A DNA stretch of 64,000 bases from Antedon mediterranea (Eukaryota > Echinodermata > Crinoidea > Comatulida > Antedonidae): contig NC_092671.1 in the NCBI RefSeq assembly GCF_964355755.1, forward strand, positions 3,793,001-3,857,000. The letters run 5' to 3'. A program made the translations under genes and the position numbers. The notes beneath the pieces were generated by a model. The model made no database searches. It saw nothing but the letters and a program-made list of their open reading frames with translations, and was not told the origin of the DNA. This document shows positions 4,449 to 47,451 of the stretch, piece after piece. Numbering within the stretch: the stretch's first letter is position 1; each line of letters begins with the position of its first letter.

Positions 4449-14339
<9,891 letters not shown>

Positions 14340-21909: not shown

Positions 21910-24626
21910 CTAATTGTACATTTCGTCAAGTATTCCTTCAATATTAGAGCACATATCTCTGACTACAGTTATTGTTTTCTCCGAGTTTTCCAGTGCGCAT
22001 TCATGTTTGTCTTTGTTGTTATAATCACTGAAGTATTTGAGCCATTCAAACTTACTATTAGTTGCGGGTTGAATCTAAAAGAATAAAAAAAAATGTAAAG
22101 TTGTATTATTTACATATAAGTTTAATACAATTATTAACCATGATCAATATTTGAGATTTAGCTACTTCTAAATGATACCCAATTTTGCAGCTATCACTTA
22201 CATTTTAACTGACTATCGCAAGTCATCTAGATATGAGTCTGTACATAGTGACAGTTGTAGGATCGAATGTAAATGACAATAATAGAATATATATAAGAAA
22301 GAATCATACACTTACCGATACAAAGTAATCAAAAAGAAGTTTGAATTTAGTTTCAAAACCTGTCCAATTAAATCTGACGACAGATTTATGATCTGTGTTC
22401 CGAATAATAATGAAATCTAAAGATTTGAATCTAGGTATTTTGGGCTTGGTACTAGAGTCTGTCGGCTCTACGGGATAACCATATTTGTTTCCAAATTTCT
22501 GCATAGCATGGTTTAGAATATTTCGTCCCTTCTGCAGCACAGTGGAGATATGATCAACTACATCGTCATCACCCATTACCATTAGAATACTGTATTCCAA
22601 TTCAAGTTGGCATTTTCTTAATGTTTTTAATTCCTCACCCATCAAAGATCCATCATCAGAAGAAGACAACAGTTCTGCAAGTTCCTGTTTCAGATTAATC
22701 TCTTTAGTCCACTTTTCGTTACCTTTAGCGACAGAAGCAATACTTTTCAAAGCAGACATTCTCAATTCAGTGTCGTCCGTCTTTTTCGTTTCTTCTAATA
22801 ATCGTTTTGCACCAATTAAACTTTGCATTTTTGTTGACTGCGTAAACTTTTCTATCGCTTTACGTTTATCTCCTGATTCTGCTGCTTTCTCTCCTTCTGC
22901 TACAAGTAAGTCCATTATAACTTTTTGACGAAAATCTTCTTGCTCTTTCGTACAACTCACGCTTCTAATACTGTCTAGCATCTCCCTACAATCATCAAGA
23001 TTACCAATCTCCAGATTTACCTTGGTGATCTTCAGACATATCTTTGTCGACAGCTCCTGATCCTGGTTTGCATGAGTTCTAAACTGTTTCAAAGCGTCCT
23101 CATAGTATGAACAAGCCTTTTCAAAGTCACCTATTTTTTCATGTAAAACTGTGCATTTTCTATAGTCGGTTGAACTTTATCTCGACCTTTTGAATCCCGA
23201 ATTTTAAGATCAAAACGTTTTTTTAAATAGGTAATTACTTTAGCAACATTGCTCTGCTGTTCATCGATAAATTCAATCGGTCCTTTTCTAGGAGTGTTTT
23301 TTACAAATGACTTAAGAGCAATCTTCAAACACTCTTGATTTCTGAAAATTGCCTGATCATATTGTTGTTTTATCGATATAAACAAACGTGCATATTTTTG
23401 GTTTACGTCAAACAAGACAAATTGATCGTCTTTAAAATCAGATAATAGATTATCATATACGACACTCGCATCCTCATGTTTTCCCAGATAGAGTAAGGCC
23501 TTTGCTTTTTGCATTTTGGCTCCAACGTCAGATGGTTGCAGTCTTATGGCATTTTCAAGACATTCCAGTTGTCTGTTTGGCTCATTCTTTTTTCTGTAAA
23601 GAACTGCCTCTTGAACAAAGATACATGCTGCGTCATTGTATTTTTTCTTCGTATATTCTATAACGTTTTGAGCTTCTTCAAAGTATACGGAATTATTATC
23701 GTTCGGCCTAGTACACGTTATTTTACGTTTTCGTTTACATCTACAATCACCCATTCGGATATAGCATTGAGCTATGAGACTCAGAACTCTTGGTCTGGAA
23801 GCCTTTTCCTTTGCTTCGCTGAGAAGATTCATAATTTGTACTATACGAGGATCATTCACATTTTCAAATATAAGACTGTGGCCAACATCTTGGTTAAATG
23901 CTGTATTGCTCATAGAATGTTGCTCATATTTTCGTCTGTATATATCAGCTAAGATAGTCTTGGCGTATGCATGATCTGCATCTCCTCCAAGACCTCATTC
24001 ATGATTTTCTTAGGTCGATTAATTTTATCAGACCACTCAAACTTATTTATATTTGTGTATCTTCGCCATGTTATGAGTCCAAGCTTAAACTTCCACTCGA
24101 CATTGTCTGGACATATCTCTGTTGCTTTCTTTAGCTCAGTCTCGCTTTCCTTGTACCGACAATATTTCAACTTTGACCCTTTGGTTGCATGAACACTCGC
24201 TTGAAACTTTCTTTTATCTTCTCCTACGGAACCTTGATATTTTGTAAGAAGGATTTTGAGATCCCTGTAATGTTCTTTCCTTTCGCGTTCGTTAGTTGTG
24301 AGCCAACACTTTAATGCTAAATATATTGATTTATACCCATCTTTGATTGATTCAGGTATTCTATCAGGTAATTCTGATATGCCACGAAAGGCTTCCTCAT
24401 TTATTTCTTTTGCTTTTGCAATATCCTTCTCAACATTTCCTTTAGAATCTGACTTGTATAAGAAGCTTTCAAACAAAAGTTCTTCAATGGTGAACGATTC
24501 TCTGTTTTCTCGATGTTCATTAATAGATTGTATTAGGGATTGAAAGGATTTAGATATGGGCTTACTTGCAAGTTCCCAATTATCATGAAAGTCAACATTT
24601 TGTAAATCAATATCTTCCGATTCCAT
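21910..24626 (-). pseudogene. IFIT-like TPR gene copy 1, two frameshifts
   Basis: Main exon 22306-24626 and terminal exon 21910-22074 (minus). It starts MESEDIDLQNVDFHDNWEL, matching its paralogs, and carries the same TPR series and C-terminal module (GRNILNHAM, then IQPATNSKFEWL ... KDKH in the last exon). Compared with the copy at 40.7-42.9 kb, one base is missing near 23985 (in the EVLELD segment) and two extra bases occur near 23145 (in the ENAKLHE segment), so the frame is broken twice; either damage or assembly error. The splice sites and the ORF between the breaks are otherwise clean. A splice acceptor lies 14 nt upstream of the ATG, implying an untranslated first exon, as in every copy. 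Confidence 0.75.
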
Positions 24627-25009
24627 GGTGTAGGCACATACTGAAAACAGACAATTAGAAGATTTAACTAGGAAGATTAGAATAACTTTGTAGATTAATG
24701 GCATAGAAATAAATGTCAATGTTGATACTGGATTGTTATCTTTCTTAAGAGACTAAGTACACTAAAATACGATGAACTGGTTTCAATACGATTCAATCCA
24801 ACGCACGGCCGTATTTGGTTTAATTCAATCAATTGTTCAAATTAATTTTTGTTTTGGCGACAGATACTGTTTGTCTCTTGACATTCTTTGGCACAATTAT
24901 ATTTTTACTTATGTTTTACCGAAATCAATAATTGATAACATAATTATTGCGGCCAATGACATTCCAACATTTTTGAAATTCTGGAAATATGAATACGAAT
25001 TTGTATTAT

Positions 25010-25145
25010 AGTGACACTTAGTGTCACAACCTACATTGGTAAAGGGCCAACTGAGACAAGTTTACTTCTAGGTTGGTTCTCAGTTTTATACTCTGTAATA
25101 ATTTGTATAACGTTTTGAATAAATAAATGTTTGTTGAATTGAATT
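25010..25145 (+). mobile_element. LINE 3' end (CR1/L2-type tail)
   Basis: The short plus-strand stretch ends in TGTTGAATTGAATTGA after AATAAATAAATG, the same kind of GAATT tail as the copy at 1852. No coding part is recognisable. Confidence 0.55.
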
Positions 25146-25555
25146 GACTTTAGTGATGTGTGTTACATATGCCTATACTCTGCGTCGAAAATAGAGAGAA
25201 ATAGAGGCATATTGCGTAATTCAATAAATCAAACGTTATTGTTATCATGGATATTCACCTTACTTACAAATGCGTGCTGATTAGACTTTATGACTCTCTC
25301 TATAAAATTACACATTTATTTAAGCCACTAACCTCCTTTTCTTATCTAACTGTAGTGAAATGTCCACAAACTAACTTCTAATTCGAAAAAACAAACTTCA
25401 AGCAATAAAACAGGCCTGACACGCAATCTTTGTAGAATTCAATATAATGACGTAATCATCATCAAACATTAACATAATATATGTCAACATATTGACTCCT
25501 ATCACAATGGTTTTCGTTCAGATATTATACATGTATTATACTTCCAAACTGTCCT

Positions 25556-25580
25556 GGAAATTCCTCGCATTATACGCATG
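25556..25580. promoter_or_regulatory. Kappa-B-like site plus GCATG, upstream of TPR copy 1
   Basis: GGAAATTCC at 25556-25564, then GCATGG starting 20 bp after the first G. About 930 bp upstream of the copy 1 ATG. A nearby GTTTAAACATGC is shared with the copy 2 upstream region. Confidence 0.5.
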
Positions 25581-26328
25581 GATGACTGTATTTATTAGAC
25601 AACTTGTTTAAACATGCAGTGAATCGTAGGAACTCATTCTTGTTCTATTATTATTAAAATCAATGATATTTTCATAGACATGTTGTAGCACAACCTAAAG
25701 TAGAATCATTAACGTACAATCTAATTTCTACTTATCCTATTATAATACCTGTATCGTTCATTTCGCCTGCTGTCCCTTCTTTCAAATGTTCCTCTCTTTT
25801 TAATGTACAATAAGCTACCTTTTTATTTCATTTAGCAAACAAAAACCATGAAGCAGCTGGATGGACATTGTATTACAATTATTGAATTGTGTTAGAGAAT
25901 TGATTTTTCTTTTGTGGGGTTTTCCCACTTTTATTTCTTCGAAATACGGTAGTATTTATTAAATTGATGTGCACAAATTATCGCACTTAATTTAATGGAC
26001 ATCAATAGTTTCAGGAGTTTTTTTAAAGATACTTTTTTTGTTATAGGCCTATAATATATTTTTGGATTTTTTTTTACTGTTTTTTAAAATCTATTATAAT
26101 TACGATTACATTAAGAAAAGAGGTTTTAATTAGCAATACACAATTAAAACAGCACACAAGCATCCTAAACTATCACGGTACATTAAAAATGATACATTAA
26201 AATAAAGTTGCCACACAAACAAATCTACAATTGTTATATACTGAACAGTAAAAGGTTGATGTGGAAATTGAGGATGAATACGAACCATTAATTCTCTTTT
26301 TTGATATGCAGAAAATCTACAACTGTCA

Positions 26329-26640
26329 TCTATATATACATTTACGTAAGGGCAAAAATCGGTAAATCGAGCGTTATTTCTCAATATATAAATTTACGTA
26401 AGGGCAAAAATCGGTAAATCGAGCGTTATTTCTAGAATGTTTACGCGATCGTATATAAAGTTGGTTAGAATCTCGGTACTGATTTTAACCACCTGATGTA
26501 ACCCTGTTTACTAATTAAATTGAGTTAGATAATTAGTTATTGACAATTAAAACGAATTTAGGTTCAACGATTTGCCCCAAATAGGGGTGTTTTTCGATCG
26601 TGGTATACACTGTCTAATGGATGTCCGTCTTGAAAAATCG
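26329..26640 (+). mobile_element. Truncated Helitron, 5' end with internal tandem duplication
   Basis: Starts TCTATATATACATTTACG after an A, matching the 5' ends of the Helitrons at 54321 and 57282. The first ~50 bp (ACGTAAGGGCAAAAATCGGT) occur twice in tandem (26345 and 26396). It continues with TTTGCCCCAAATAGGGGTGT and stops matching near 26640; the 3' hairpin end is absent. Confidence 0.8.
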
Positions 26641-26877
26641 CACACTATATACAGCGTCTTCTTCTGTAGTATCTTGATTGTAAGAAAGCTTTTGAGTTTC
26701 TTGTAGTTTTCTCTCTTTTCTTTGGTTTGTTGTAAACAAGTACGTTAATGCCAAGCATAATAAACGTTTTCAATAATGTTCATGAGTTCCTGTTGTGTAA
26801 GCAGAAAACAATACGTTTTATTAATTTACTTATTGGCAATGCAAAAAAGAAACAGTTTTAGGGTTCATAGACTAAAA

Positions 26878-29180
26878 CTACTTGTCAAGTGATTTTTCTG
26901 GCAAGAGAATAAGGAAAATAGTTATTTTAATGTTACTTTCCAGAAAAAAATCACATAACTGAAAAAAATAATCTCTAGAATATTATATTTTAAAGAAAGA
27001 ATATTATTATGTTTGAAAAATTTGGAAAGACAAATAATTTTTCCTGTTGATGTACGACTTACATTACAAAGACTAACTTCACTAATAGCCCGTGATATTT
27101 CCTGCATCTCATTCTGTTGAAAAAGCACATTCAGAAAAATAATAAGTAATACTCCGATAGGTTGTGTTGAGATTGTCAGTAGGGATGTACTTCTACTGGC
27201 AAAGTGTTATTTTTGTATCCAGAAATGGATTGCAGAATTACAGCGGCGATGTATAAATTATAGCTAGAAAGCATACATAATACAAGCATTACTTTTAAGT
27301 TTCTTATAATTGTAATATATCACAACTGAATATTGATATTATCGATTCTATATTTACCTTAGATGTGCTACATCTTTCGGATTTGTCTGGTCCGGAAACA
27401 GTGTGACCTATGTACACAAGTAGAAACATGGCATTAGTGTAAGTATTTTGTATGTGGTATTTCTGAAACAAGATTTTACTAGCAACACATTTCAGGTGCA
27501 AGCTGTTATAGACAAAGCCTTGTCATGCGGTACAAATTATTGTTATAATTTTACATAAAAAGCGAGTCGATAAGTATTCATTACATATGTGATGTTTCTT
27601 AGAAGGTAAGTTTATTGAAAGTAAACTCAACTTTAGAATCAATACGTTTCCACAGCGAATGTTTGGCATACATTTTAAATTTTAAAATTGTGTTTGTTTT
27701 GTTCGTATAGGCCTCGATTCTAATTTCGCAAGCAAATAAACGCATACCCACCTATGAACTTTAATGAAATAAAAGTGAGATTAAGTTGAAAAATAAAATT
27801 CACTGTCTTCCATGTTTTATAACTTTAACATCAACAATAATAGCCCTTCCCCAACTCTAACAGTAATAATTGGGTGAGCATGTCGCATTGTTGGCCTGTT
27901 AAAATTAAAATATCTGGGTAATAAAAACACGTTAAATTACATACTGTAATTAATCTCTCCTTTCCCGTCGAGCGTTTGAAGAGCACCTTCATATGCTCCT
28001 TGATCAAACTTTGTCTCCCAAGTTTGCTCAAATTCTTGCCGATGTCTCTCTGTAAAGAGTATTCCCGCTATGTCTTTCAGAAGTTGTCCGCTTCGATGCA
28101 GATTCCATAAATTCGTAAGAGCAATGGGATCAACTAAAGAAACATGGAATTCTATAGATCCTTCTGTTAAAATCAAATCTTCACTGGAACCACGGAAGAA
28201 AAAGTAACCAATCAGTTTTTTAAGTTTATCACAACATAATGCAAAGATCTCCTGAAGTGACATTCGGTGTGGAAATTGATGGTCTTCAGATTCCTCATCT
28301 GTTGGCGTTAGGATTATGGCTACTGCAACACCTTTAATAAAACATAAATATATTTTTACACAAAAGTGTTAATCAACAGAAGAAGAAGAAACTTTTATTA
28401 TTTAAACAAAACACCACTGTATACAGGGGATCTAATAGTTTGTTTTGGGCTTATACGGTATAACCACAATTTGCATGTAACATACCACATCGAAAAAGTT
28501 GTTTCTTACAAATATCAAGTAATAGTGAGACTATGTTTTCTACAAATCGTTCAGCCTTTTTATCCGTTAATCACTTAATTAAATGTAATTACACATTTTT
28601 GCATACTGAGTGTTAATGTTATTGTGATGATTATAGCAAAGAAAAAATACATACTATTGTTAAGGAGATGATTCTTCGCTCTTTGGTTAAGACAATGAGC
28701 AAACCTTGCTATTTTTGTGGAATCATCTTCCAGCAAAGCATCTCTCTCCAATCGTAATATTAAATCCCAAATAGTTGGGAATAAACTGGCTGACAACCCG
28801 TAGCGAGCACTAATGTCTTTCAACTCATCATTTCCAACATCTCGCAATGCATTAAACAGGTTTTTACGATAGTTTGACATCTTTCTTGTTGCCGTATTTT
28901 GACGATTTGACTTCATGTACTCTTTTACAAGATCTTTTGCTGATTTTAAATATGAAAGTTCGGCGATTTCTAATAAAAGATGAACATTATCAGGTGCAAT
29001 AAACCCACGCTCTTCTAGTGAATTTAGTAACTGAGGTCCTGAATCTGTAGCGGTAAGGTCATTGTAACGTAGATCATCAAATAAGCAGAATCTCAGCCAT
29101 CTAATATGGGATTCGTCGTAAATTTTGCCGAATGTAAATTTTAATGTTTTGAAATTCTCAATGTCATCACTGTTTGCCAT
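26878..29180 (-). CDS. Double death-effector-domain protein with TRADD-N-like domain
   Basis: Proposed exons on the minus strand: 28655-29180, 27945-28331, 27358-27407, 27063-27113 and 26878-26958. All have GT-AG sites and matching phases, giving 364 aa; the last three exons are small and less certain (the frame alternatively stops soon after exon 2). Residues 22-90 look like a DED: SHIRWLRFCLFDDLRYNDL then SLEERGFI then LLLEIAEL. Residues 103-172 look like a second: LFNALRDVGNDELKDI ... LILRLERDALL. Residues 225-297 (GSIEFHVSLVDPIALTNLW, HRSGQL, GILFTE) match the pattern of TRADD-N-like modules that accompany death domains in invertebrate adaptors. Likely a cytosolic apoptosis or inflammation adaptor without caspase domain. 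It lies inside the TPR cluster on the same strand. Exon 2 could instead begin at 28322. A splice acceptor sits about 24 nt before the ATG. Confidence 0.7.
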
Positions 29181-30034
29181 TTCACCAAACGTGTTTTTGT
29201 CTGCAAAGCAATGAAATTACAATAAACAAATTCATGGAGGAAATGTATTTAATTATGTTATGCTAAACTTGTTTTTGACTTTTGACTTCCATTGAGAATA
29301 AGGAAATTACTATATTATTATAACTAATATTAATACTGTTAATGAAAATGCAGTAAATTGTGTTTATTTTTATAACCTGCATGTCTGTGTCAACGTCTTG
29401 CTTGGCATGGTACTAAACCACTTCTGTATAAAAACTATATATTATATAGGTTTCAATTAAGTATGCCAATATTATTAGAAAATTTTATAAGAAATGTTGT
29501 AATTGAGTCTAATATAAGAAGAATAATATTAAAGATTTGTGCTGAAAATGTTACAGTAGGCGATTATAGAATAGAGAATAACACATTTAGCGTTACGTTT
29601 GTTTTCAAATGCTCTCAGTACATTGTATCTTTAAAAATTTAAATATATACATGGTTGGAAACCAACAAAAAAAACCATTGCAAAAACAAACTTTAATTGC
29701 ATTATTAAAAGTATACGATTTTTGTTAATGCTTTTAGAGCTCTTATAGTCGATAATACATAATACAAATAACCATACCATTTATTGTGATGAATCCAAGG
29801 ATGATTGATTTCAAACAATGACTAAAGGTACTATTATATACATCGAATGGTATGTTTGCTTTTGCTATCAATTTGTCTGTTTTAATTTAGGATGGTATAC
29901 CAAATTTAACCTGACTTCTTATACACTCCCCCACCTCCCTTTAGATGATTTACTGCTTCATCCTCTTTAAATGTATTACGTTGTTGTCTCACAAAAGCCA
30001 TAATAATGAACATAGCTAGTTCATCATTCGAGAC

Positions 30035-30112
30035 TAGCAGGGGGATTACCACCTATCTGATAGGACAGTGATTCATTTACTGTTTGTAATCCTTGACCAC
30101 ATGTGCATAAAC
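30035..30112 (+). repeat. SINE 3'-part fragment
   Basis: AGGGGGATTACCACCTATCT and GATAGGACAGTGATTCA match the 3' half of the SINE at 38315-38677. Confidence 0.65.
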
Positions 30113-31059
30113 ACAATATAAATTCATTATATATGAAGACGTGGGATAATTCATGATTTTTCAGTCACACAGAAATTAAATATCTTAAGTATATTGTGTA
30201 GCATTCAGCAATAACAGGTTAGCATTCAGGAACAAACAAGAGAAAGTCTATATACTTTTGCTAATCAAAGTTGCGAGAAATGCATATTTGGAGAGCTCCC
30301 CCACCCCAATGTATTTGTATAGTATGTCAAGCATTACTTATATCTAACAACAATTACCGAAACATTTTTTTCAACAATAGTTATTTGCCTTTCACGCTGA
30401 AAGTTGTTATTGCCGACGATACAATACAATATATTGTGATAAAGCCTAAGCATGACTGATTTTGAAAAAAAGATCACAAACGTTTGAGTATACTATTGAC
30501 AATAAATGAGGTATACATTATCTAAATAAATGCATTTCTTCTTACATGATTTTCTGTGAATCAAAGTATAAGGCGCGACTAATTCCAGCTTCTTTTTACA
30601 GTTTGTACGTTTTATTATCTTTGTACATAGATCTTACTAACTTAGCTAAAAAGTAAAAGGTAGTAATATACATCAAACGAACTAAAACATATGAACGCAT
30701 AATTAAAATGGGTCGGGAATTTACAGTGGGTTATTTTAATCAAGCATTATTGCTTTGTTTTCAAATGGCTTACCTTAAGTAAGTTGTTTTAGAACACCTG
30801 TTTGTTAATATTGAAAAAAAAAAACCAACACGGAACCGACACGGCAATTAGATTGCCAACGTCTCACTGCTGTAGGTACTCTCTAACGGCACTTATACCA
30901 AATATCGTATATTTATATACGATCTTTGCTTATACAACGGCAATAATTAATTCACAGCGCCTCCTATAGATACAGGAATATACGCTTTTTTTTAGAAAAT
31001 GTAGGCTTTAAGTTTTCACAAGACAAACTACTAATGGCATAATTGATATATATATCACT

Positions 31060-31338
<279 letters not shown>

Positions 31339-32004
31339 ATGTTTTATGTTTATCAGACCTGTTAGAGGATGTTTTCGCTGTTGGTTTCGATCGAATGAAA
31401 TAAAATAATACATTGATTTAATATATTTATTTAAAAAAATAAAATACAGCCGTGTCTAATGATAATAAAAAAACATACAATTTAATCAAAGTCATCTCCT
31501 TTATAAAAGAAATAAATCATGTTCTTGATAGTCCTCAAAATAATTATTTTAATGAATTATTCATTATTTCTGATAAAAAATAATGCGGCCCGCCATACTC
31601 AGTAATTATGGGGGATAAATACAGAAAAAGAAATATAAAAAATAGAAATAGAGTGTAAACAGAGTGGATGTGCAAGATTGTGCATTGTATTATCTAAAAT
31701 AAATAGTGATTTAAACATTCATACAACACTGTATACACTATAATGTTTAATAAAAAATGCAATCGCTTGCAGGATTATAAAACAATATTTTGATTCTGGA
31801 TAAAGGAAGGCATATCATGAAAAAGACGAGAAACAATTATTTTAAAATAAACATTTCACATAGAAGCGATGCAGATTAAAAATTAAATGTTACCATAGCA
31901 TAATCCTCACTTCTTTATTTACAAGAGGTACAAAATGAGAAAGAAAATGGAGCTTTGTGTAGACGCTGATCTTCTTTGTCAGCGTTTATCTTTTTATCAG
32001 TGAT

Positions 32005-34725
32005 TCAGCACCATTTGTAAATTTCTCGGAGTATTCTTTCAATGTTAGAACACATATCTCTTGCAACAGAAATGATTGTTTTATTTGAATCTGCTTGCGG
32101 GCGTCCATGTTTATCATCGTTGTTGAGATCACTGAAGTCTTGCAGCCATTTAAACTCAACATTAGTTGCAGGTTGAATCTTGAAAAAACGAATGAAATTA
32201 CAGATGTGTATTATGTATCTTTATAACATTTATTCGGAAGAAACATTTAAAAAACATTTTAAATATATACCAAGTCGCTTGCTTGGTTGATTATGCAAAA
32301 CGATAATATTGATAATTATATATTAGCATCTTAGTATTACATTCATAATTGCTATAATAAAAGTTTGTGTCATTTCATTACGTGACCTTACTAAGTGGAA
32401 TCTGTATAACAGACACTTACCGTTTTAAGGTATTCAAACAGATCTGGTAATTCATTTTCAAAGTCTATCCAATGGCTTCCTTTTAGTTGCTTTAGCATTT
32501 GGTTTTCAACAGATGCTCGATTTTCGTTTCGAATAATAATGAAATCTAAAGACTTGGGGTTAGCCTTAACCTTCTGCTGCTGCTCCTTAGGTTTGGGATA
32601 ACCATGTTTGTTTCCTAATAACGCCATAGCATGGTTTAGTGAATTACGTCCTTTCTGTAGCACGGTAGATATATTAGCAGATATGTTATCATCATCCATT
32701 AGAATGCTGTATTCCATTTCAAGTTGACATTCTCTTAATGCTTTTAATTCTTGGCCCATCAAAGATCCATCATCAGAAGAAGGTAACAGTTCTGCAAGTT
32801 CTTGTTTCAGGTTAAACTCTTTACTCCAGTTTTCGTCATCTTTAACGACTGAAGCAATACATTTCAAAGCAGACATTCTTGATCCAGTATCTCCCGTCCG
32901 TTTCGTTTCTTTCAATAAACGTTTCGCACCATCCAAACTTCCAATTTCTGTTGCTCGTGTAAACATTCTTATCGCTTTAATGCCATCTCCTGACTCAGCT
33001 GCTTTCTCTCCTTTTGCTACAAGTAAATCAATTGTAAGTTGACTGACGTGGTCTTTCTCTGTCACACATGTCTCGCATTTAATAATCGACAAAACACTAC
33101 TGCAAACATCAAAGTTACCCATCTTCAAATTCACTTTAGCAAACTTAACGAGTGTCGCAACCTCCTGATCATGGTTAGTATTTGGTGTTTTATAGTGAAA
33201 TGCTCGCAAGGCACCCCTATAATACGAACAAGCGTTCTTAAAGTCAACTATCTTTTCATGTAGCGTTACATTTTCTAGATTTGGTTTAACTTTATTTCGA
33301 CCTTTCGAATTTTGAATTTTGATATTAAAATGAGTTTTTAATTTTCGTATTATTTCATTAACACGCCTCTGTTGTTCCGTTATAAATTCAATGGGTACAT
33401 TCTCAGAAATATTCTTGGCGAATTGCAATTTCAAAACAATCCTTGTTTTTGGAAGCTTCTTCATCATATTGGTTTAGTAATTAAAAAAAATGTGCATAGT
33501 TTTGGTAAATATGAAACTTGGTGAAGAACGGATCATCTTTGAAATCAAATAATAGATTAGTATACACGGTACTCGCCTCATCATGTCTTCCAAGAGAGGC
33601 TAAGGCATCTGCTTTTAGCATTTTGGCTCCGGCATCAGATGGGTGTAACCTAATCGCATTTTCAATACACGTCAATTCATTGTTTGTGTCATTTTTTTCT
33701 CGGCAAAGAACTGCTTCTTGAACAAAAATACACGCTGCTTCACCGTAATTCCTTTTAGAATATTCGATAACGTCATGAGCTTTTTAAAAATATATTGAAT
33801 CGCAATTAGGCTCACTGCACTTCCGGTTTCCTTTCAATCTACAACTACAGCCACCCATTCTGATATAGCATTGAGCTACGAGACCCAATACCTTCGGTCT
33901 TGAAGCAAGCGTGTTGCTATATTTAGTAAATTCATTATTTTTTGTATACAAGGATCATTGACATTTTTAATACAAGACTGTGTGTACTGGATCTTTTCTT
34001 AGATCTTTTCTTAGACCTTTTCTGATGTTTTCGTCTGTGGATATCAGCTAGAATCGTATTAGCATATGCATGACCAGCATATAGTTTTAAAACTTCATCC
34101 ATAACTGTTTTAACATGATCCATTCCATCAGACCACTCAAATTTGTATATATAACTCGTTGGTCTTCGCCAGGTTATAAGTCCAAGCATAAACTTCCAAT
34201 CGATATTTTCTGGACAAATCTCTGTTGCTAGTTTAAGCTCAGTCTCACTTTCTTTGTACCTAGAAAATAATAACCTTGACCACGCAAAACCTTTAGTCAC
34301 ATGAATACTTGCTTGAAACTTTCTTCTTTCTTCTTCCGCACCTTCCTGATATACCACGAGAAGGCCTTTAAAAGTTCCAGGTAATTTTCTTCTTTTTCGC
34401 TTTGATTAGTTGTAAACCAACACTTTAATGCCAAATATATTGATTTATAAACATCTTTGATTGATTCAGCGGCAGGTAATTCTGATATTGCACGAGCGGC
34501 TTCCTCGTTTTTCGCTTTTGCAATATCCTTCTCATCGTTTCCTTTAACATCTGACATGTATAAGTAGCTTTCAAATAAAAGTGCCTCAATGGATAACATG
34601 TCTTCTTCCTGGTGTTCAATACTTGGCTGATTTAACGATTTAAATGATTTACTTGTATTTTCAAGTTTCCAGTTGGCATGAAACTCAACATCTTGTAGGC
34701 CTAATTCAATATTTTTCCATTCCAT
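32005..34725 (-). pseudogene. IFIT-like TPR gene copy 2, multiply disrupted
   Basis: The start matches paralogs (LQDVEFHANWKLEN). Defects relative to intact copies: frameshifts near 34370, 33968 and 33910, an in-frame TAA at 33784-33786, and another stop with frameshift near 33470-33480. The 3' part is open for 358 codons (32421-33467 of the main exon) and joins correctly to the terminal exon 32005-32178, which ends KWC-stop. Its middle TPR part resembles copy 6 (NTNHDQE, CETC, GIKAIRMFTRATE), whereas from about 32800 downward it is almost identical to copy 5, so the copy is mosaic. A KKRSKKRS run near 34000 is unique to this copy. Confidence 0.85.
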
Positions 34726-36925: not shown

Positions 36926-37050
36926 TGGTTCCCACTGCATACGGAACACAAGGACGTAACGCAACGCAAGTGATTCGACCAATCACAAGCGATGGATTAT
37001 TGGAAATGTCGCTTTGGTCAACTCGCTTGCGTTGTTACAGAATGAGCTTT
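36926..37050. repeat. MITE copy, GGTTCCC family
   Basis: GCTTGGTTCCCACTGCATAC, then ACGTAACGCAACGCAAGTGA, then ACCAATCACAAGCGATGGAT, ending in ACTCGCTTGCGTTGTTACAG. Confidence 0.65.
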
Positions 37051-37099
37051 AGAGTTAGGATAATATTTTTTTCCAAAACTCCATAACGTTATTTAGGAG

Positions 37100-37356
37100 G
37101 AATTAGTGTTAATAATGATCGTATTATCCTCCATTAAGACGCTATATTCAATTTTGAATTGGCAATTTCATAATGCCTTTAATTCTTGACCTATTAAAGA
37201 TCCGTCATCACAAGACGTTCTGCATGTTCTTGTTTAAAGCTAAACTCTTTAGGAAAGTTTTCGTCATCTTTAGCGATCGAAGCAATGCTTTTTAAAGCAT
37301 ACAGTCTCAGCTTTTCTGTATTTTCTGTCCTTTTCGTTTCTTGTAATAATCGGTTA
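37100..37356 (-). pseudogene. IFIT-like TPR relic (copy 3), main-exon fragment
   Basis: The minus strand reads RLLQETKRTEN, then LYALKSIASIAKDDENFPKE and FKQEHAE, then decayed matches to the DDGSLMGQELKAL block, corresponding to about residues 600-690 of the intact protein. Ends are cut and frames broken. A kappa-B-like promoter relic lies about 350 bp upstream, so most of the gene has been deleted between them. Confidence 0.8.
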
Positions 37357-37702
37357 TAATAATAATATAATTTTAAACTGTTAAGATAAAAGGGGTCAAG
37401 ACTGTTCTGCATAATACGTGACACTATAGTTGATAGGTTGTAACTTTGATACCGTAAATGTGACTTGTCGGCGCCGATGCTATTATAGACAGATACAGAA
37501 CTGTGAGTAGGCCTAGGCCTATTGAGGCCCAACGTCAAATCTCTATGCTTAAAATAGAATTATTGATTATGTAGTAAAAATAAAACTTCTGCTGTAGTGC
37601 CTATTATCATTAAACCACAGCCTACCAGTGAAATTAGATAATACTTAACCTCCTTGTCCTAAGCTAATGTCGTTATTGTGATTACTATAGTGATATTTAT
37701 CC

Positions 37703-37733
37703 GGAAATTTCCTACATTACGCGCATGCGCGAC
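37703..37733. promoter_or_regulatory. Kappa-B-like site plus GCATGCG, upstream of TPR relic
   Basis: GGAAATTTCC at 37703-37712, GCATGCGCGAC beginning 20 bp after its first G. Confidence 0.5.
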
Positions 37734-37755
37734 CACATAATTATAATTAAGTTGA

Positions 37756-38113
37756 GTGAGTGAGTGGCCGAGCGGTTAAGACAGTGGAACAGTAATTAAG
37801 TAGCCATAAAATCGGCAAGGGTTCGAGGCTCACTCGCTCCATGGTTCTGGTGGTAGAACGAGTCTTCTCGGATAAGGACTAGAAACCGTAGGTCCAGTGT
37901 ACACATAGCTCATGCGCACTTTAAAGAACCTAGTAAATCTTTCGAGACGAGTAGGGGGTTACCCCGGTGTACTAGTCCACACAAACACAGCCACTGTCAC
38001 ACACAGCCACTGTGCAAATTGGGACTGGGCCGTTTTAGAGGTGTTTACCACCTGTTGGTCCAGATCCTTCACTAACTGAATTAGTGAGAAGTCGAATAAA
38101 TAAAATAAATAAT
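37756..38113 (+). mobile_element. tRNA-derived SINE, full length
   Basis: The head is tRNA-like (Leu/Ser type): A box TGGCCGAGCGGTTAAG near 37765, B box GGGTTCGAGGC near 37819. The body contains TCTTCTCGGATAAGGACTAG and GTAGGTCCAGTGTACAC, and the 3' tail is AATAAATAAAATAAAT. Shares the body with the reverse copy at 38315. Confidence 0.85.
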
Positions 38114-38314
38114 GCTGTTTACAGTAAAAAGGCTACGTGTAGAGAACAATTATTCACTATCAACAATTTTATGCATTTTATTTTATAATATTCAATTAAC
38201 ACAATGTACAAATAATCTCTGTTCCTCGTGCCAGCTGTCGTCAATCATTGTGTTAGCTATCGGTAACCGTCATGAATTCTTACATTTTTATCCAAAAAAT
38301 ATATGTAGTGTCAA

Positions 38315-38677
38315 TTTATTTATTTATTTATTTTATGTCTTTAGGCACTGTGGCCAAGGATTACCAATAGTGAATTAATCACTGTCCTATCAGATAGGTG
38401 GTAATCCCCCTGATACAGAGGCTACGGTATTGTGTGAACCAGTTCACCGGGGTAACCCCCTACTCTTTTTCGAATAATGAACTGGGTTCTTTAAAGTACA
38501 CACAGGTTATAACTGTGTACACTGGACCTACGGTTTATAGTCCTTATCCGAGAAGACTTGTTCCACCACCAGAACTAGGAGCGAGTCGGCCTCGAACCCT
38601 TGCCGATGTTGTTGTTGGCTCTTTAGGTACGATAAACGGCGCCCCTGCCTTAACCGCTCGGCCATATGACTCGCTAC
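38315..38677 (-). mobile_element. tRNA-derived SINE, full length, opposite orientation
   Basis: Read on the minus strand: A box TGGCCGAGCGGTTAAG, B box GGGTTCGAGGC, body with TCTTCTCGGATAAGGACTAT, 3' part with GGGGGATTACCACCTATCTG, tail of AAATA repeats. The two SINEs lie tail to tail about 200 bp apart. Confidence 0.85.
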
Positions 38678-38874
38678 AAATAAATGCCAAATAATAAGCT
38701 CTTTTTTACACACCTTTGCTGCAAGACTAAACAAAGTTATCTTAAAAACATATTATAGGCATTATTAAGAACAATTTTTATAACTGGTATAGTAATACAA
38801 AAATCTGGTTCAATGGTCAGACAAAATTAACGTTTTGTGTTCGTAGACCTCCTTACCATCGTATACCGATGGAT

Positions 38875-39040
38875 TCACCTCTTTAACCAGGGTTCCTTCT
38901 CAGTAAACCAGGACCATTTCTATATATTTCTTCAAGTATTTCTTCAACGTTAGAACACATATCTCGAATATATCTAGAATAAATAACATATTTCCTAGGA
39001 ATACACAAATTAATTATAAATAGATATATATCTATATGAT
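38875..39040 (-). pseudogene. IFIT-like terminal-exon and intron relic (copy 4)
   Basis: The minus strand reads RDMCSNVEEILEEIYRNGPG, the end of the terminal exon. It is joined directly to intron sequence (AGAATAAATAACATATTTC, AATTAATTATAAATAGATAT) that matches the copy 6 intron at 44963-45030. The exon's first half (IQPATN to DKH) is deleted. Confidence 0.8.
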
Positions 39041-39044
39041 TTTA

Positions 39045-40200
39045 TTTTTATTCTATTTGAACAATATTTAATGAGGGTGATCCATCCAGCATAAACTGAT
39101 CCAGTACATGTGAATTCTTTCCACAACTTTGGTCCATATATGTGTATAAATTGCTGACTGCAAGTCAATCTCGTAAAGGGAATTTCGAATTCAGTTTCTT
39201 TTCTGAGGTTATGAGTAAAACTGGCACAGTAACTAAACATATTTAAAATATGATATGGTAATTATTTGCATCTTACATTTGCCATAATATGACGTTTAGG
39301 TTACTTTGTGAATATCATAAACGTTAAATAGTTTCAGTTTCTTAAACAATGGCTCTGAGACTTTTCTGAATTGAGAGAAAGTAATGCATTTTACAACTCT
39401 CTTTTGGAGCTTTAAGAGGACTTCTAATATAATTATATTCACATAGGACTATTGTGTCATGAATATAACCAGTATATAGCGACTTCCAGTGGAAAAGGGT
39501 CGAGGTTTATCTGGCGGCGAAGGTGAATTAAATTCTAAAGATTGTAGTCCTTTTTTTTTTATTGTTTATGAAATATAATGCTATGAACCTAATTTCCATT
39601 ACTTGCTTTTTTCAACGGAAAGTTTTAAAACAATGGAAGAAAACAGGTCTCCTAATCGAATTGTTCCGTCCATTAATATGATTATCTCCCCCCCCCCCCC
39701 TTATTTTCAACAATGTCCTCTAAGTAAAGTAACCTACTTCGCGCGCTTTTAAAACATTTCAAGACGTCACAGCTACAGACGGCTTTCATTCTCACATATT
39801 GCCCGTCTCGAATAATAGAATATTCCCTGTATATTCTCTGCACACAGTTCTGTGAGAAATGGTACGAGATGAGTTGATGTTTATTACTAATTTTTAAGAT
39901 AAGTATATATTTTTAAGATAAGTATTTGCTTTGTAGAATTGGGGTTCCTTAGCTTTTGTTATGTATTTGCATTTTATTTATGTTCTCATTGTTTAAATTC
40001 AGCCATTTCATTTTTTATTCAATTGAATGAATGTGTCTTGAACTATTTAACTATTTAGCAATAATATAACACAACAACAATAGAAATACAAACTAGATTA
40101 ACTTAAAGTGAGACAAAATAAAGCTATGTTGATGTTTTGTAATTACCAAACCCCCATAGATTCAAGTCATGAATCAAAATTCAGATTCTTTTGAAGTGGC
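39045..40200. other. Intergenic, no gene seen
   Basis: Contains a C-run near 39690-39700 and short AT-rich stretches. Nothing coding recognised. Confidence 0.45.
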
Positions 40201-40740
40201 CTAGCACCATTTGTACATTTCTTCAAGTATTCCTTCAATTTTAGAACACATATCTTTTGCAACAGAAATGGTTGTTTTATTTAAATCTGCTTGTGGGCGT
40301 CCATGTTTGTCATCGTTGTTGAGATCACTGAAGTCTTGCAGCCATTTAAAATCATCATTAATTGCAGGTTGAATCTAGCAAAAACGAAATGAAATTACAA
40401 ATGTGTGTTATGTGCCTCTGTAATATTATACAATTTGGAAATAACATTTAAAAAACATCTTAAATAAAAGTCGCTCGTCTATTTGGGCAATAACGATAAT
40501 ATTTATTATTAGTAGTAGCAGTCTATTATTCAATTCATAATCATTTAATTATGTAAATTTTGATAATTATACGGTTTGTGTCATTTCATTTAGGTGACCC
40601 TACTAAGTGGAATTTATATAATAGACACTTACCGATTTAAGGTATTCAAACAGATCTGGTAATTCATTTTCAAAGTCTACCCAGTGGCTTCCTTTTAGTT
40701 GCTTTAGCATTTGGGTTTCAACCGATCCTCGATCCTCGTT
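40201..40740 (-). pseudogene. Orphaned 3' part of TPR copy 5 beyond its nonsense codon
   Basis: After the TGA, 36 codons remain open to the donor at 40632-40633 and the terminal exon 40201-40374 is intact (IQPAINDDFKWLQDFSDLNN, DDKH, ending KWC-stop). All splice signals are preserved, so the region is otherwise a functional-looking end of copy 5. Confidence 0.75.
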
Positions 40741-42945
40741 TCAAATAATAATGAAATCTAAAGACTTGGGGTTAGCCTTAACCTTCTGCTGCTGCTCATT
40801 GGGTTTGGGATAACCATGTTTGTTTCCTAACAACGCCATAGCATGGTTTAGTGAATTACGTCCTTTCTGTAGCACGGTAGATATATTAGCAGATATGTTA
40901 TCATCATCCATTAGAATGCTGTATTCCATTTCAAGTTGACATGCTCTTAATGCTTTTAATTCTTGACCCATCACAGATCCATCATCAAAAGAAGGCAACA
41001 CTTCTGCAAGTTCTTGTTTCAGATTAAACTCTTTACTCCAGTTTTCGTCATCTTTAGCGACTGAAGCAATATTTTTCAAAGCAGACATTCTCAAATCAGT
41101 ATCTTCCATCTTTTTCGTTTCTTCTAACAATCGTTTCGCACCAACTAAATTCCCCCAGTTTGTCGACTCCGTGAACTTTTCTATCGCTTCAAGTTTATCT
41201 CCTGCTTTAGTTGCACTCTCTCCTTCTGCTACAAGTAATTCTACTCTAAGTTGTTGACGGGTGTCGATTTGCTCTTTCGTACAAGTATAGTTTATTATAC
41301 TTTCTAACATATCTCTACATTCGTCAAGGTTTCCTATCTTCAAATTCATCTCAGCGACTTTAAGACGTGTAGCTGTCAATAACTTCTGATCGCCATAGTT
41401 ATATGGAAATGATCGCAAGGCTCCTTTATAATAAGAACACGCATTCTTAAAGTCACCTATCATTTCATGTAGTTTTGCATTTTCTAGATTCGGTTGAATT
41501 TTATCTCGATTTCTCGATCGTTTAATTTTAATATTGAAATGTTTTTGTAAAGATGTGATTAGTTTATTCACGTGACTCTGCTGCTCATCTATAAACTCAA
41601 TATGCCCATTCTCGGAAATGTTCTTTACGAATGACGTAACAGCAATCTTTAAACACTCTTGCTTTCTGAAAACTGCCTCATCATATTCCGTTATATTGTT
41701 CAAGTACTTTGCATAATTGCGGTTTATGTCGAAGCTATCAAATTGATCTTTAAAATTAGATAGTAAGCTACCATACACTAAAACAACTTCGTCGTGGTCT
41801 CCCAGCAAGGCTAAAGCATTTGCCTTATCTATTCTAGCTCCGACGTCAGATGGTTTCAGACTGATTGCAATTTCAAGACACTCCAATTGTTTGTTTGGGT
41901 CATTCTTCTCCCGGTAAAAAACTGCCTCTTGAACAAAGATACATGCTGCTTTATCGTAATTTTCTTTCGCATATTCTATAACGTTATAAGCTTTCTCATA
42001 GTATATTGAATCGTATTTAGGTTCACTGCATTTCCAGTTTCCTACGCTTCTGCATCGGCATTCACACATTCGGATATAGCATTGAGCTATAAGGCTCAGA
42101 ATTCTTGGCCTGGAGGCGTTTAGTGTTGCTTCTTCGAGTAACTTCATTATTTTCATTATACAAGGATCAAGTTTGTTTTCGAATACAAGACTGTGGCCAA
42201 CATCTTGTTCGGATTGTAAACGGTTCTTGACCTCTTGTTGATATTTTCTTCTGTATATATCAGCTAAGATCGTCTTGGCATAGGCATGATCAGAATCTAG
42301 TTCCAATACTTCAACCATGATTTCTTCAACACGATTCATTTCATTAGACCACTCACACTTGTTTAGATTATGTTTCTGTCTTCGCCATGTTATGAGTCCA
42401 AGCATAAACCTCCACTCGACATTTTCTGGACATATCTCGGTTGCTACTTTCAGTTCAGTCTCACTTTCTTCGTACCTAGAAAATGATAACCTAGACAGCG
42501 CGAAACCTTTGGTCACATGGACACTTGCTTGAAACCGTCTCTTGTATTCTTCTGTAGAATCTTCATATGTTTTAAGAATTCTGTCCAATTTATGGTAGCT
42601 CTCCTTTTTTTTACGTTGATTGCTTGGAAACCAACACTTTAATGCCAAATATATTGATTTATAACCATCTTTTATTGACTCCGCGTCAGTTAATTCTGAT
42701 ATGGCACAGAACGCTTTTGCATTTTTTTGCTTCGCTGTCGCAATATCCTTTTCATCGTTTCCTTTAAATTCTGACATGTACAAGTAGCTTTCAAACAAAA
42801 GTGCCTCAATGGTGAATGATTTGTTATCCTCCTGGTGTTCAGCAATTGATTGTTTTAACGATTTGAATGATTTAGAAGTAGGCCTAGGCTTATTTTCAAG
42901 TTTCCAATTAGCATGAAAATTGACGTGTTGTAAATCACGTTCCAT
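40741..42945 (-). CDS. IFIT-like TPR protein copy 5, truncated by one nonsense codon
   Basis: One open exon of 734 codons. The N-terminus LQHVNFHANWKLE resembles the start of IFIT proteins (CHFTWNL-type), followed by helix-turn-helix repeats throughout, for example SRYEESETELKVATEICPEN and KQLECLEIAISLKPSDVGAR. Vertebrate IFITs are TPR solenoids that bind viral or non-self RNA ends. After the TPRs come GRNSLNHAM and KSLDFIII; then the next codon, CGA (Arg) in copy 2, is TGA here. The protein thus loses the last 93 residues, including the terminal exon with DKH. An acceptor at 42960-ish just upstream of the ATG implies an untranslated first exon. It may be a recent null allele or a working short form. 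Confidence 0.8.
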   Translation of the reverse strand: MERDLQHVNFHANWKLENKPRPTSKSFKSLKQSIAEHQEDNKSFTIEALLFESYLYMSEFKGNDEKDIATAKQKNAKAFCAISELTDAESIKDGYKSIYLALKCWFPSNQRKKKESYHKLDRILKTYEDSTEEYKRRFQASVHVTKGFALSRLSFSRYEESETELKVATEICPENVEWRFMLGLITWRRQKHNLNKCEWSNEMNRVEEIMVEVLELDSDHAYAKTILADIYRRKYQQEVKNRLQSEQDVGHSLVFENKLDPCIMKIMKLLEEATLNASRPRILSLIAQCYIRMCECRCRSVGNWKCSEPKYDSIYYEKAYNVIEYAKENYDKAACIFVQEAVFYREKNDPNKQLECLEIAISLKPSDVGARIDKANALALLGDHDEVVLVYGSLLSNFKDQFDSFDINRNYAKYLNNITEYDEAVFRKQECLKIAVTSFVKNISENGHIEFIDEQQSHVNKLITSLQKHFNIKIKRSRNRDKIQPNLENAKLHEMIGDFKNACSYYKGALRSFPYNYGDQKLLTATRLKVAEMNLKIGNLDECRDMLESIINYTCTKEQIDTRQQLRVELLVAEGESATKAGDKLEAIEKFTESTNWGNLVGAKRLLEETKKMEDTDLRMSALKNIASVAKDDENWSKEFNLKQELAEVLPSFDDGSVMGQELKALRACQLEMEYSILMDDDNISANISTVLQKGRNSLNHAMALLGNKHGYPKPNEQQQKVKANPKSLDFIII

Positions 42946-43654
42946 TTTGGCAAGTCACTGTCAACAGAAAAATTATTAACATTATTTAATTTGACTGATA
43001 AGAACAATAACGTACAATATATCATTCTGTATTGACACTGACAGATCTCTTATACGATCAAGTCCGGTAAATAAGAACTTTGGACATCATTTAACTCCCT
43101 ATATGATAATATTGCGGAAATTCTTTATTGGTCCTAATTAGAAATAGGTTATGGCTAGTCACAGATATAACTCATGTAGTCAAGTCTTCAACATTTTCTC
43201 ACTCCAATTAAAAGTATAGTGGGGTGAGGCGATGTTATAAATCTCAGAAAACTCCATTATATATATATATATTTGGCTGATTGGATTTAATCATCCACCA
43301 CTGAACATTTTTTTTTGCTAGCACCTCAAATACGGTAGGCCTACAGACATAGGTCCTACGCATCCCATTTGGCCTTAACTAATACCAATTTCAATTATAT
43401 TCTGCTTCTAAAATGCGTGTAACATAATTGCAGCACATGATTAAACGTATTGCTTTGCAGTAAAGCATTATAAATGTCAGTGTTCTATGGCATCACAATT
43501 CCGACAGGTTTAGTATTGATTATTTAATGTTACTACGTGGCAGTGATCATAACAACGTTTTTACAATAACTATATATTTAATACTACATAATATAATATA
43601 TAGTAGTTTTTAAGGCAGAGGCTTTTTTATACGATTAGGTAGATGTAGAAGTGT

Positions 43655-43705
43655 AATGCAATGTAACGTCCTTGTGTTGCGTCATAGTGGGAACCAAGCT
43701 TTTAC
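43655..43705. repeat. MITE end, GGTTCCC family
   Basis: AATGCAATGTAACGTCCTTG then TAGTGGGAACCAAGCTT, the right terminus of the family. Confidence 0.55.
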
Positions 43706-43949
43706 GGGCATCAATACAGTTTCCAGTAAGTTTGGCCTAAGATTTTAGACATAAACCACAACACGCAAAATAGGCATCTAAAAGTGTTATCAGATAATGT
43801 TTAGCTCACGTTATGTGAATGGTAATTAGATTATAAATGATATCATTGTTTCAAACAATAACATATAGGCATACTTACAATACTATGTTACCCTTAATTC
43901 GTTGTCCTTCAGTGTCATTATAATTGTGAATAATATAATTATTTTATTT

Positions 43950-43980
43950 GGAAATTCCCGGTACCATGAGCATGCGTGAC
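43950..43980. promoter_or_regulatory. Kappa-B-like site plus GCATGCGTGAC, upstream of TPR copy 5
   Basis: GGAAATTCCC at 43950-43959, GCATGCGTGAC starting 20 bp after its first G. About 1.0 kb upstream of the copy 5 ATG. A GTAAGT donor at about 43876 could end a first exon. Confidence 0.55.
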
Positions 43981-44387
43981 TTTAGACTGTTTGTTTATAC
44001 TTTGTGAAATATATAATGTACCGACGTGTGGTTTGTAATCTCCATAATGATTTAAAATCAACATTTTGTTAATATTGTATTTTAATTGAAACCTATTATT
44101 CTACTACAAAAATTGTGTTTAATTTCCGGTTTCTTGCGCCATTACGTGTTTTCAACATTGTGTTTAGGTCAATTATTGGAAGATATTGTTTACAACCAAC
44201 TAAATTAGTTGAAAACTGCAGCTTTCCTTAAATGAAAATTATTAAAACAATCAACATAGATGTTGATATAACGTTTGCAGTAGTCTGAGTTCCAGACGGA
44301 GTTTTGACTTAATAAGCTTCAGCTAGACAAACATCGAAGAAAAGCCCCGAAATAACTACATACTTTGCGCAAGTCTATGTTTGCAGG

Positions 44388-44455
44388 TACACCACGTATA
44401 TATGGTTCTGAAAAGAACTGTTGAGTTTCGACGTTTCCTCAGGAGTGATATATAA
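44388..44455 (+). repeat. Interspersed repeat with GTTCTGAAAAGAAC hairpin
   Basis: GTACACCACG, then GGTTCTGAAAAGAACTGTTG, then TTTCCTCAGGAGTG. The same block occurs reversed at 60688-60778. The superfamily is not determined. Confidence 0.55.
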
Positions 44456-44731
44456 ATAAACATAAACAAATAATATTGTTTTTCGCTAATTAAGACACGT
44501 TACTCTAATAATCATAACATTATACTCTAAGGTAATTGACTGACACTTTAGCAAGTAATTTGTCAAATCACAAACAGCGGTTTGGATGATGATTCATCGC
44601 GCAAGAAAAACATACTAAGTAAATATTTAAGAACCAATGATAGAACTATCACTACTAATCAGTAGACAAAATGCGCAGATTCAATGGGGAGACAAACACA
44701 CGTTGTCATACCCATACGTTCAATTTTTCAA

Positions 44732-47451
44732 TCAGGGTTCTTTTTCAGTGATCCAGCACCATTTGTAAATTTCCTCAAGTATTTCTTCAATGTTAGAACA
44801 CATATCTCGTGCAACAGAAATTGTTTTACTCGAGTTTTCTTGTAACCGTCGATGTTTGTCATCGTTGTTGAGAGTATTGACAGCTTGTAACCATTCGAAC
44901 TTAGCATTTGTTGCAGGTTGAATCTATCAGATAAAAATTCGTATTATTATTAGTATATGTATCTCTAGAATAAATAACATATTTCGTAGGAATACACAAA
45001 TTAATTATAAATAGATATATACCTATATGATGTGTCAAATTACTACAAAACACTTATATTACTTTAAATATTTCAGGATGCAGAATATGAGACAGTTTGT
45101 TTCTACTTAGATGTTGCTACTCAAAGAAGCTATATAAAGGGAAACAAACTTACCGATACAAGATATATCAACAGAGGTTTGAATTTATTTCTAAAATCTT
45201 TCCAGTCTCTCTGTTTTAGTATCTTTTGAATTCGTTGATCAACAGTTTCAGGTGGTGTTACTTTCGGAATAATAATGAAGTCTACAGATCTAGCTTTGGA
45301 ATTTGGATAATGTTTGTTTCCAAATTGCTCCATAGCATGGTTTAGTATATTTCGGCCTTGCTGCAGTACAATAGAGATGTTAGTGGCTATTTTATCATCA
45401 TCCATTAGAATGCTGTATTCCATTTCCAATTGACATCCTCTTAATGCTTTTAATTCTTGGCCCATCAAAGATCCATCATCACAAGAAGGCAACAGTTCGG
45501 CAAGTTCTTGTTTCAGATTAAACTCTTTACTCCAGCTTTCGCTACCTTTAGCGACCGAAGCAATACTTTTCAAAGCAGACATTCTCAATTTGGTATCTTC
45601 CGTTCTTTTTGTTTCTTCTAATAGTCGTTTCGCACCAACTAAACTTCTCAATTCTGTTGCCCGAGTAAATATTCTTATCGCTTTAATGCCATCTCCAGAT
45701 GCAGCTTCTTTCTCTCCTTTTGCTACAAATAAGTCCATTGTAAGTTGACGGACATCTTTCTCTTTTACACAAGTCTCGCATTTAATAATCGCTAAAATAT
45801 TACTACAAACATCAAAACTACTCATCTTCAAATTCACTCGAGCGAATTTAACAAGTGTCTCAATCTCCTCGGCGTGGCTTGTATTTGGTGCATGTGCATA
45901 GTGATATGCTTTCAAACCCTCTTTATAATAAGAACAAGCATTCTTAAAGTCACCCAACTTTTCGTGTAGCTTTGCATTTTCCAAATTTGCTGCAATTTTG
46001 TCTAGACCTTCTGAATGTTTAATTTTGCTATTGAAATGGTTTCGCACATATTTAACGATTTTATTAACAGCGGTTTTATACTCATCTAAAAATTCCACAG
46101 GTCTATTCCCAGAAGTGGTTTTCGCGAATGACTCAAGAGCAATGTCTATACATGCTTGGTTGCTGCAAACTGCGTCACGATAGTCTTCCTTCAATGCAAG
46201 ATAACGTGCATAGTTTTGGTTTACGTCAAACAAGACAATTGGATCGTCTTTGAAATCAGATAATAGATTATCATACACAACATCTACATCATCATGTTTT
46301 CCCAGAGAAGCTAGAGCTTTTGCCTTTTGCATTTTGGCTGCAGGGTCAGATGGCTGCAGTCTTATCGCATTTTCAAGACACTCCAATTGTTTGTTTGTTT
46401 CATTCTTTTCTCGGTAAAGAATTGCCTCTTGAACAAAGATACACGCTGCTTTACCGTATTTTTCTTTCGCACATTCTATAACGTCATGAGCTTTTTTATA
46501 GTATATTGAATCGCATTTGGGTTCACTGCACTTTGTTTTGACTCTTTTACATTTGCATTCACCCATTCGGATATAGCATTGAGCAATGAGACTCAATATT
46601 CTTGGCCTCAAAGATGACTTCTTTGCTTCTTCGAGCAAATTCAGTATTTTGAAAATAAGGAGATTTTCTACGTTTTCGAAAACAAGACTGTGGTCAACAT
46701 CTTCAACTTCACTGTATGATCTTTTTTGGTTAAATCCTTGATGATATTTTCTTCTGTATATATCAGCCAAAATCGTCTTGGCATAGGCATGACCAGCATC
46801 TAGTTTCAATACTTCGTCCATAATTTCTTCAGCTCGATTCAATTCATCAGACCACTGAGACGGGTAAAGTTTACGTTTTGGTATTCGCCATGCTATGAGT
46901 CCAAACATAAACTTCCACTCAACATTTTCTGGACATATCTCGCTTGCTAGTTTCAGCTCAGTTGCGCTCTCTTCGTACCTAGAGAATTTTAATCTTGACA
47001 GAGCGAAGCCTTTGGTTGCATGAATACTTGCTTCAAACTTTCTCTTGTCTTCTTCACCACTATGCTTGTATACTGTCAGTAGGTTACTGAGTTCCTTTAA
47101 GTGTTCTTCTTTATTGCTGCGTTTGTTTGCAAACCAACACTTTAATGCCAAATACATTGACTTATAACCATTTTTAATCGATTCAGGTATTCTATCAGGT
47201 AATTCTGATATTGCACGAAAGGCTTCCTCATTTATTTCTTTTGCTTTCGAAATATCCTTCTCATCGTTTCCTTTAAAATCTGACATGTATGTGTAGCTTT
47301 CGAATAAAAGTAGCTCGATGGTGAACGATTTTGTATCTTCCCGGTGCTCAATAATTGATTGCTTTAATGATTTAAATGATTTACATGTATTTTCGAGGTT
47401 CCAATTAGCATGAAAGTCAACATCTCGTAAATTAATAATGTTCGGTTCCAT
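44732..47451 (-). CDS. IFIT-like TPR protein copy 6, intact, 829 aa
   Basis: Two coding exons: 45154-47451 (766 codons) and 44732-44923 (63 codons plus stop), phase-0 GT-AG intron. The only undamaged copy. Layout: LRDVDFHANWNLEN (6-19) like the IFIT N-terminus; an all-helical TPR solenoid to about residue 690 (FSRYEESATELKLASEICPE, KQLECLENAIRLQPSDPAAK, KNACSYYKEGLKAYHY); then GRNILNHAM (699-707; R700-x4-H705), VDFIII (725-ish), and in the last exon IQPATNAKFEWLQ with LNNDDKH (784-790). The order LNHA, FII, QPxxN, LNNxDKH resembles a small bacterial HEPN-like family; this is inference. The stop of the paralogs (TGC-TGA) is TGG here, adding six residues. No signal peptide or TM: cytosolic. Likely an innate immune effector, probably RNA-related, function unproven. 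An acceptor 13-15 nt before the ATG implies an untranslated first exon, possibly ending at the GTAAG donor at 47800. Confidence 0.85.

Follow-up and report, generated by a model that had tools for sequence, protein, structure and literature searches.

An IFIT-like gene cluster in the crinoid Antedon mediterranea: a probable invertebrate branch of the IFIT family

IFIT proteins and the Antedon locus

Vertebrate IFITs, represented by the structures of IFIT5 and IFIT1 (PDB 3zgq, 4hot, 5w5h), are the described proteins closest to the genes discussed here; the human members bind viral RNA. For mammalian IFIT1 and IFIT1B, the part of the literature used here describes gene conversion (PMC4887208). 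A 2013 account, in the portions drawn on here, lists tetratricopeptide repeat (TPR) proteins of acorn worm and lancelet with IFIT BLAST matches at E < 1e-6, and calls the long C-terminus of zebrafish IFIT5A not conserved (PMC3688568). The present study concerns a cluster of TPR genes in the crinoid Antedon mediterranea. It lies in a window of 64,000 nucleotides (nt), bases 3,793,001-3,857,000 of contig C2 (NC_092671.1), in a genome of 354 Mb and 18 contigs; the family is known here from this one genome. A preliminary description of the window had assigned the cluster to IFIT-like proteins, and sequence profiles, predicted fold and start motif support this assignment. That these genes belong by descent to the IFIT family is well supported. 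We consider it likely that the cluster represents an invertebrate branch of this family, the products of which, as we infer, probably act as effectors against non-self RNA.

The gene cluster in the window

Mapping of the spliced 829-aa protein of copy C6 on the window by tblastn confirmed that a single TPR gene is present in four near-full copies and two relics, all on the minus strand (as are the coordinates in this section) between 21916 and 47451. The window copies align in register, with about 60-97% identity in coding blocks, which is far above chance (repeat search and alignment). Copy C6 is intact, with 829 codons open in the DNA and the splice model, so that the length first proposed for it holds. 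Its exon 1 (45154..47451, 766 codons, residues 1-766) comprises the IFIT-like solenoid (residues ~6-542) and most of a C-terminal extension, as read from the open reading frame (ORF), the splice model and the AlphaFold2 (AF2) and VIA match to IFIT5/IFIT1. It is followed by a GT-AG phase-0 intron (44924-45153) and a 3′ exon (44732..44923, residues 767-829).

The other three copies share this gene structure, the 3′ exon being matched by tblastn in each, and all three are damaged, in agreement with the decay described earlier. Copy C5 (40201..42945; exon 1 42945-40633, 3′ exon 40374-40201, ends read from the DNA; tblastn blocks 42936-40630 and 40374-40186) carries a single in-frame TGA at 40741-40743, and its frame is readable beyond this stop up to the splice site. 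Copy C3 (32005..34725; ATG at 34725, exon 1 to 32421, 3′ exon 32178-32005, ends read from the DNA; tblastn blocks 34704-32418 and 32196-31990) has frameshifts or stops in the first half of exon 1. Exon 1 of copy C1 (21916..24626; exon 1 24626-22313, 3′ exon 22074-21916, from ORFs and tblastn) is spread across three frames. The relics correspond to residues 609-723 of exon 1 (37036..37352, also found in repeat search families D8 and D9) and to residues 805-829 of the 3′ exon (38890..38966), both by tblastn. The FHxNWxLE start ascribed to the copies is present in C6, C5 and C3 (FHANWKLE) and absent from C1, which reads FHDNWELA.

Each gene would consist of a probable 5′ untranslated region (5′UTR) exon, with an intron ending just before the ATG, then a large exon with most of the coding sequence and, at the end, a short exon. 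A candidate CAG splice acceptor (47467..47469) lies 15 nt before the ATG of copy C6 and implies a 5′UTR exon farther upstream. By eye, and without a null, all 14 family copies have a YAG at 7-26 nt before the ATG; under a strict polypyrimidine rule 9 of the 14 pass, and C6 does not. Outside the window, the 3′ exon is also matched by tblastn at loci L014, L016 and L018, and weakly (E 0.001) in the family copy on contig C10.

Sequence and fold likeness to IFIT

IFIT5 is the top match across profile searches with family profiles, and by these profiles IFIT is closer to the family than other TPR proteins are. The IFIT alignments, at 15-25% identity, are colinear from the first residues, including stretches outside the consensus TPR regions. 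In the predicted structure an IFIT-type TPR superhelix extends along the full IFIT length (residues ~6-542), and structure comparison of the AF2 model places IFIT5/IFIT1 ahead of the next family by a Z gap of more than 3. The CHFTWxL-type N-terminal motif of IFITs is likewise recovered. Of the two clades into which the family falls (A, which includes the window copies, and B), clade B reads CHF[IM]W[EK]LE in five of six rows and FHLTWELE in the sixth; clade A has a weaker form, [FY]HxNWxLE, in all four rows.

Paralogs and evolution of the family

The genome was searched with three queries, namely copy C6, a clade-B member and the most divergent member. At least 14 substantial copies were found; the third query returned no further loci in the genome, and the copy counts are lower bounds. 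Besides the four window copies, clade A comprises one copy upstream at C2:3.868 Mb, with a stop-to-stop ORF of 551 codons and homology that stops at about C6 residue 578, and three at C7:15.936-15.967 Mb, two of which are frame-broken and the third cut off after about residue 637. A clade-A relic on contig C5 consists of the closing part of exon 1 together with the final exon. Clade B comprises three genes at C2:15.092-15.101 Mb and one apiece on contigs C4, C1 and C10. Two of its members, B1 and B2 (mutual dS 0.02), end after about 510 codons and thus have vertebrate IFIT length; in B1 an AATAAA follows soon after the end of the ORF.

Three paralogs carry a lone stop late in exon 1, each at its own site: copy C5, as given above, B3 and the clade-B copy on contig C10 (L010:5756; L013:3317). 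Coding-like sequence runs on past these stops toward the splice site, which may point to a dispensable tail, or possibly to readthrough.

Within the window, copies C3 and C5 share a conversion-like tract on the minus strand (32005..32727 in C3, ~40201-40939 in C5) that includes the intron. Over the five blocks of 150 columns that run from about position 45433 of C6 to the end, they are 81-97% identical, against 59-84% in 13 blocks upstream of a shared block at C6 45583, which is itself uninformative because it is 88-93% identical in all six pairs. At about 45871-45583 copy C3 resembles C6 (82%) more than C5 (63-70%). Judged from the alignment, this C3/C5/C6 mosaic looks like gene conversion. 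The pairwise ratio of nonsynonymous to synonymous substitution (dN/dS) is 0.27-0.47 in 9 of 10 pairs and 0.67 in the young B1/B2 pair, which is constraint overall.

Possible function and alternative explanations

Based on these data, we hypothesize that the clustered genes form a tandem array, partly in decay, which belongs to clade A of an invertebrate IFIT family. Residues ~6-542 would fold as an IFIT solenoid, the closed TPR groove of which may take the 5′ end of single-stranded RNA, as in vertebrate IFITs. The phosphates would be held by basic residues (Arg at the positions of IFIT1 K151 and R187, and the invariant Gln and Arg at IFIT5 Q288 and R294), and the Phe at the IFIT1 W147 position may face the cap or the first base. 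Triphosphate or under-methylated foreign RNA would thereby be kept from translation, a putative antiviral role. The extension (~543-829) would add TPR-like hairpins and helices and may bind partners. An inducing pathway is possible, since IRF domains (four exon matches at two places in the genome), a RIG-I C-terminal domain (three full matches and one partial) and a STING-type ligand domain (a single array of 15 exon matches, contig C1:19073747-19107246) are encoded; this array by itself suggests a tandem STING expansion in Antedon mediterranea.

Tunnel residues were taken from the parts of PMC13197388 and PMC7762956 consulted here and mapped via HMMER alignments. All 10 family members have Arg at R186/R187 and at R294, Gln at Q288 and Phe at W147; 9 of the 10 have Tyr at Y157, and 8 have Arg at K150/K151. 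Several observations weigh against RNA-end binding. Locus L010 is 24.6% identical to IFIT5 over 284 aligned positions as background, and of the listed tunnel residues 5/18 are identical (P 0.47) and 10/18 similar (P 0.06). Adding four residues taken to belong to the set (Y156, Y254, H287, Y293) gives 8/22 identical (P 0.14) and 13/22 similar (P 0.02). IFIT5 Y250, R253, Y254 and K257 are not retained, R253/R255 and Y254 being lost also in the comparison of family members, and H287 is His in all six clade-B rows and in none of the four clade-A rows. Most of the basic residues on the phosphate side are thus retained, whereas some of the subdomain-II set are lost, which neither proves nor excludes 5′-end binding.

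IFIT2 and IFIT3 work through protein partners, and the window clade could be IFITs by descent that do the same, lacking RNA-end binding and having the extension as their functional part. The absence of H287 from clade A, its Ile at R260 and the Met at K150 in two of its four members would suit such a role. The extension itself is found in both clades, which makes it ancestral in this genome, and in the remaining copies of the window it shares 60-69% identity with that of C6. Folded alone from the four window rows (predicted local distance difference test, pLDDT, 80.2), residues 522-766 form hairpins of TPR type and a long pair of helices, for which the structure matches are to generic TPRs; a profile of residues ~543-829, from which the last exon was excluded, found no relative in PDB. 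Against this stand the Arg at R187 and the Gln at Q288, invariant across clades A and B, and the late exon-1 stops, which suggest that some members can do without the tail. We hold a purely partner-binding role to be unlikely.

A single-sequence search with C6 gave no PDB match below E 1, and with the full profile a designed consensus TPR protein nearly equals IFIT5 (1.6e-18, summed over repeats), designed TPRs ranking second in the other profile searches. The AF2 model was built on seven window rows, has pLDDT below 50 at residues 1-43, and is matched by IFIT2 entries at only 17.0 and 14.7. The preliminary description had proposed comparison with IFIT structures by Foldseek; by E-value IFIT5 ranks fourth, below SPINDLY and two chains of the Pol II elongation complex, its template modelling score on the target being 0.60, against 0.12-0.19 for the three ranked above it. 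A rival reading is a lineage-specific TPR scaffold, which would serve as a protein-protein adaptor in the manner of LGN, kinesin light chain or APC/C subunits and would owe its likeness to IFIT only to the convergence of long TPR solenoids. TPR proteins in general do score (CDC27 5.8e-8 and OGT 9.2e-7 with the same full profile, OGT 8.1e-8 with another), Pfam finds TPR-type models, the tunnel residues are at background level, and IFIT2 compares no better in structure than LGN or OGT. Convergence would account poorly, however, for colinear alignments beyond the consensus repeats with IFIT5 on top, for the Z gap, for the CHFxW[EK]LE start and for the likely intron beside the ATG, and we regard a scaffold as quite unlikely. 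That the cluster is mostly dead, a set of decaying duplicates without present function, seems improbable: only one of the four window copies is intact and the contig C7 copies are broken or cut off, yet C6 is open throughout, dN/dS of C6-C5 (0.38) and C6-L017 (0.39) indicates long constraint, and B1 and B2, as well as the clade-B contig C10 copy up to its late stop, are open.

Further points tell against an IFIT family in this animal. Most family copies are damaged. As regards the interferon-stimulated response element (ISRE), the 64 kb contain GAAANNGAAA five times, and the one closest to C6 lies 2.0 kb upstream of its ATG; the true promoters lie beyond the putative 5′ exons. The portions used of the 2013 account limit IFITs to jawed vertebrates with an origin tied to interferon, report no identifiable sea urchin IFIT and reject the acorn worm and lancelet candidates by tree (PMC3688568); a 2026 review, in the part drawn on here, still cites that paper for the IFIT family (PMC13030082). 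The Antedon family is in conflict with this jawed-vertebrate origin.

Neighbouring genes and other observations

Within the cluster, between copies C1 and C3, lie exons of a gene outside the TPR family (27940..29216, minus strand). Pfam matches it to the death effector domain (DED; E 2.7e-5, 24.7 bits, under the gathering score of 35.9), with perhaps a second DED by eye; its exon at 27940-28365 has no Pfam match. Beside the cluster, three small proteins of about 110-145 aa (53106-53507, 55620-55967 and 60954-61382, minus strand) share an HNH-like pattern (TDGAH...IPLC..C, with invariant W and C), and a further one (L017:31-366, minus strand) stands beside the upstream paralog. This family has no PDB match, and Pfam gives DUF968 at 0.039 for one member and nothing for another; judged from the pattern, it is possibly a small nuclease-like or zinc-binding family. 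Flanking exons on the plus strand encode a protein kinase, CDK-like by eye (4383-4697), and a Ras-family GTPase (62676-63113). AGGCCTA and TAGGCCT together number 56 in the window when overlaps are counted twice, where base composition predicts about 3.6. Contig C2 also holds a 12-gene Hox cluster, the signatures of which read as ambulacrarian, without deciding between echinoderm and hemichordate.

Comparison with known systems

If the proposed reading is correct, the IFIT effector predates the cytokine now controlling it. IFIT-like RNA surveillance could then be studied outside the vertebrate interferon system, and the role of the C-terminal extension becomes a structural question. The chances seem evenly balanced that IFITs did not originate together with interferon in jawed vertebrates and that the ancestral deuterostome already had such a family, identical in fold, in start motif and in the intron next to the ATG, and longer by a TPR tail. 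Vertebrate IFITs and, separately, B1/B2 would then have been shortened, the old tail perhaps persisting in zebrafish IFIT5A, and invertebrates would possess an interferon-free surveillance of RNA 5′ ends which duplicates, converts and decays like mammalian IFITs.

The acorn worm and lancelet TPR proteins come, like the Antedon family, from invertebrate deuterostomes, and differ in grouping with FKBP4 in the neighbour-joining tree of the cited account, as far as used here (PMC3688568). Zebrafish IFIT5A resembles the family in its long C-terminus (residues 509-773, past the usual IFIT), a likeness by description only in the part of that paper drawn on here (PMC3688568). Vertebrate IFITs differ in their length of about 480 aa (PDB chains 479-482), typical rather than defining, which C6 exceeds at 829 aa with its C-terminal extension and 3′ exon. 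The candidate acceptor lies before the ATG here, and the acceptor of vertebrate IFITs after it; moreover, in Antedon several tunnel residues are replaced, the ISRE is not close and the host is an invertebrate. Alike in both are the region of the start motif, the colinear sequence and predicted fold over residues ~6-542, the concentration of coding sequence in one big exon, with an intron that probably adjoins the ATG, and a tandem, same-strand cluster with change in copy number.
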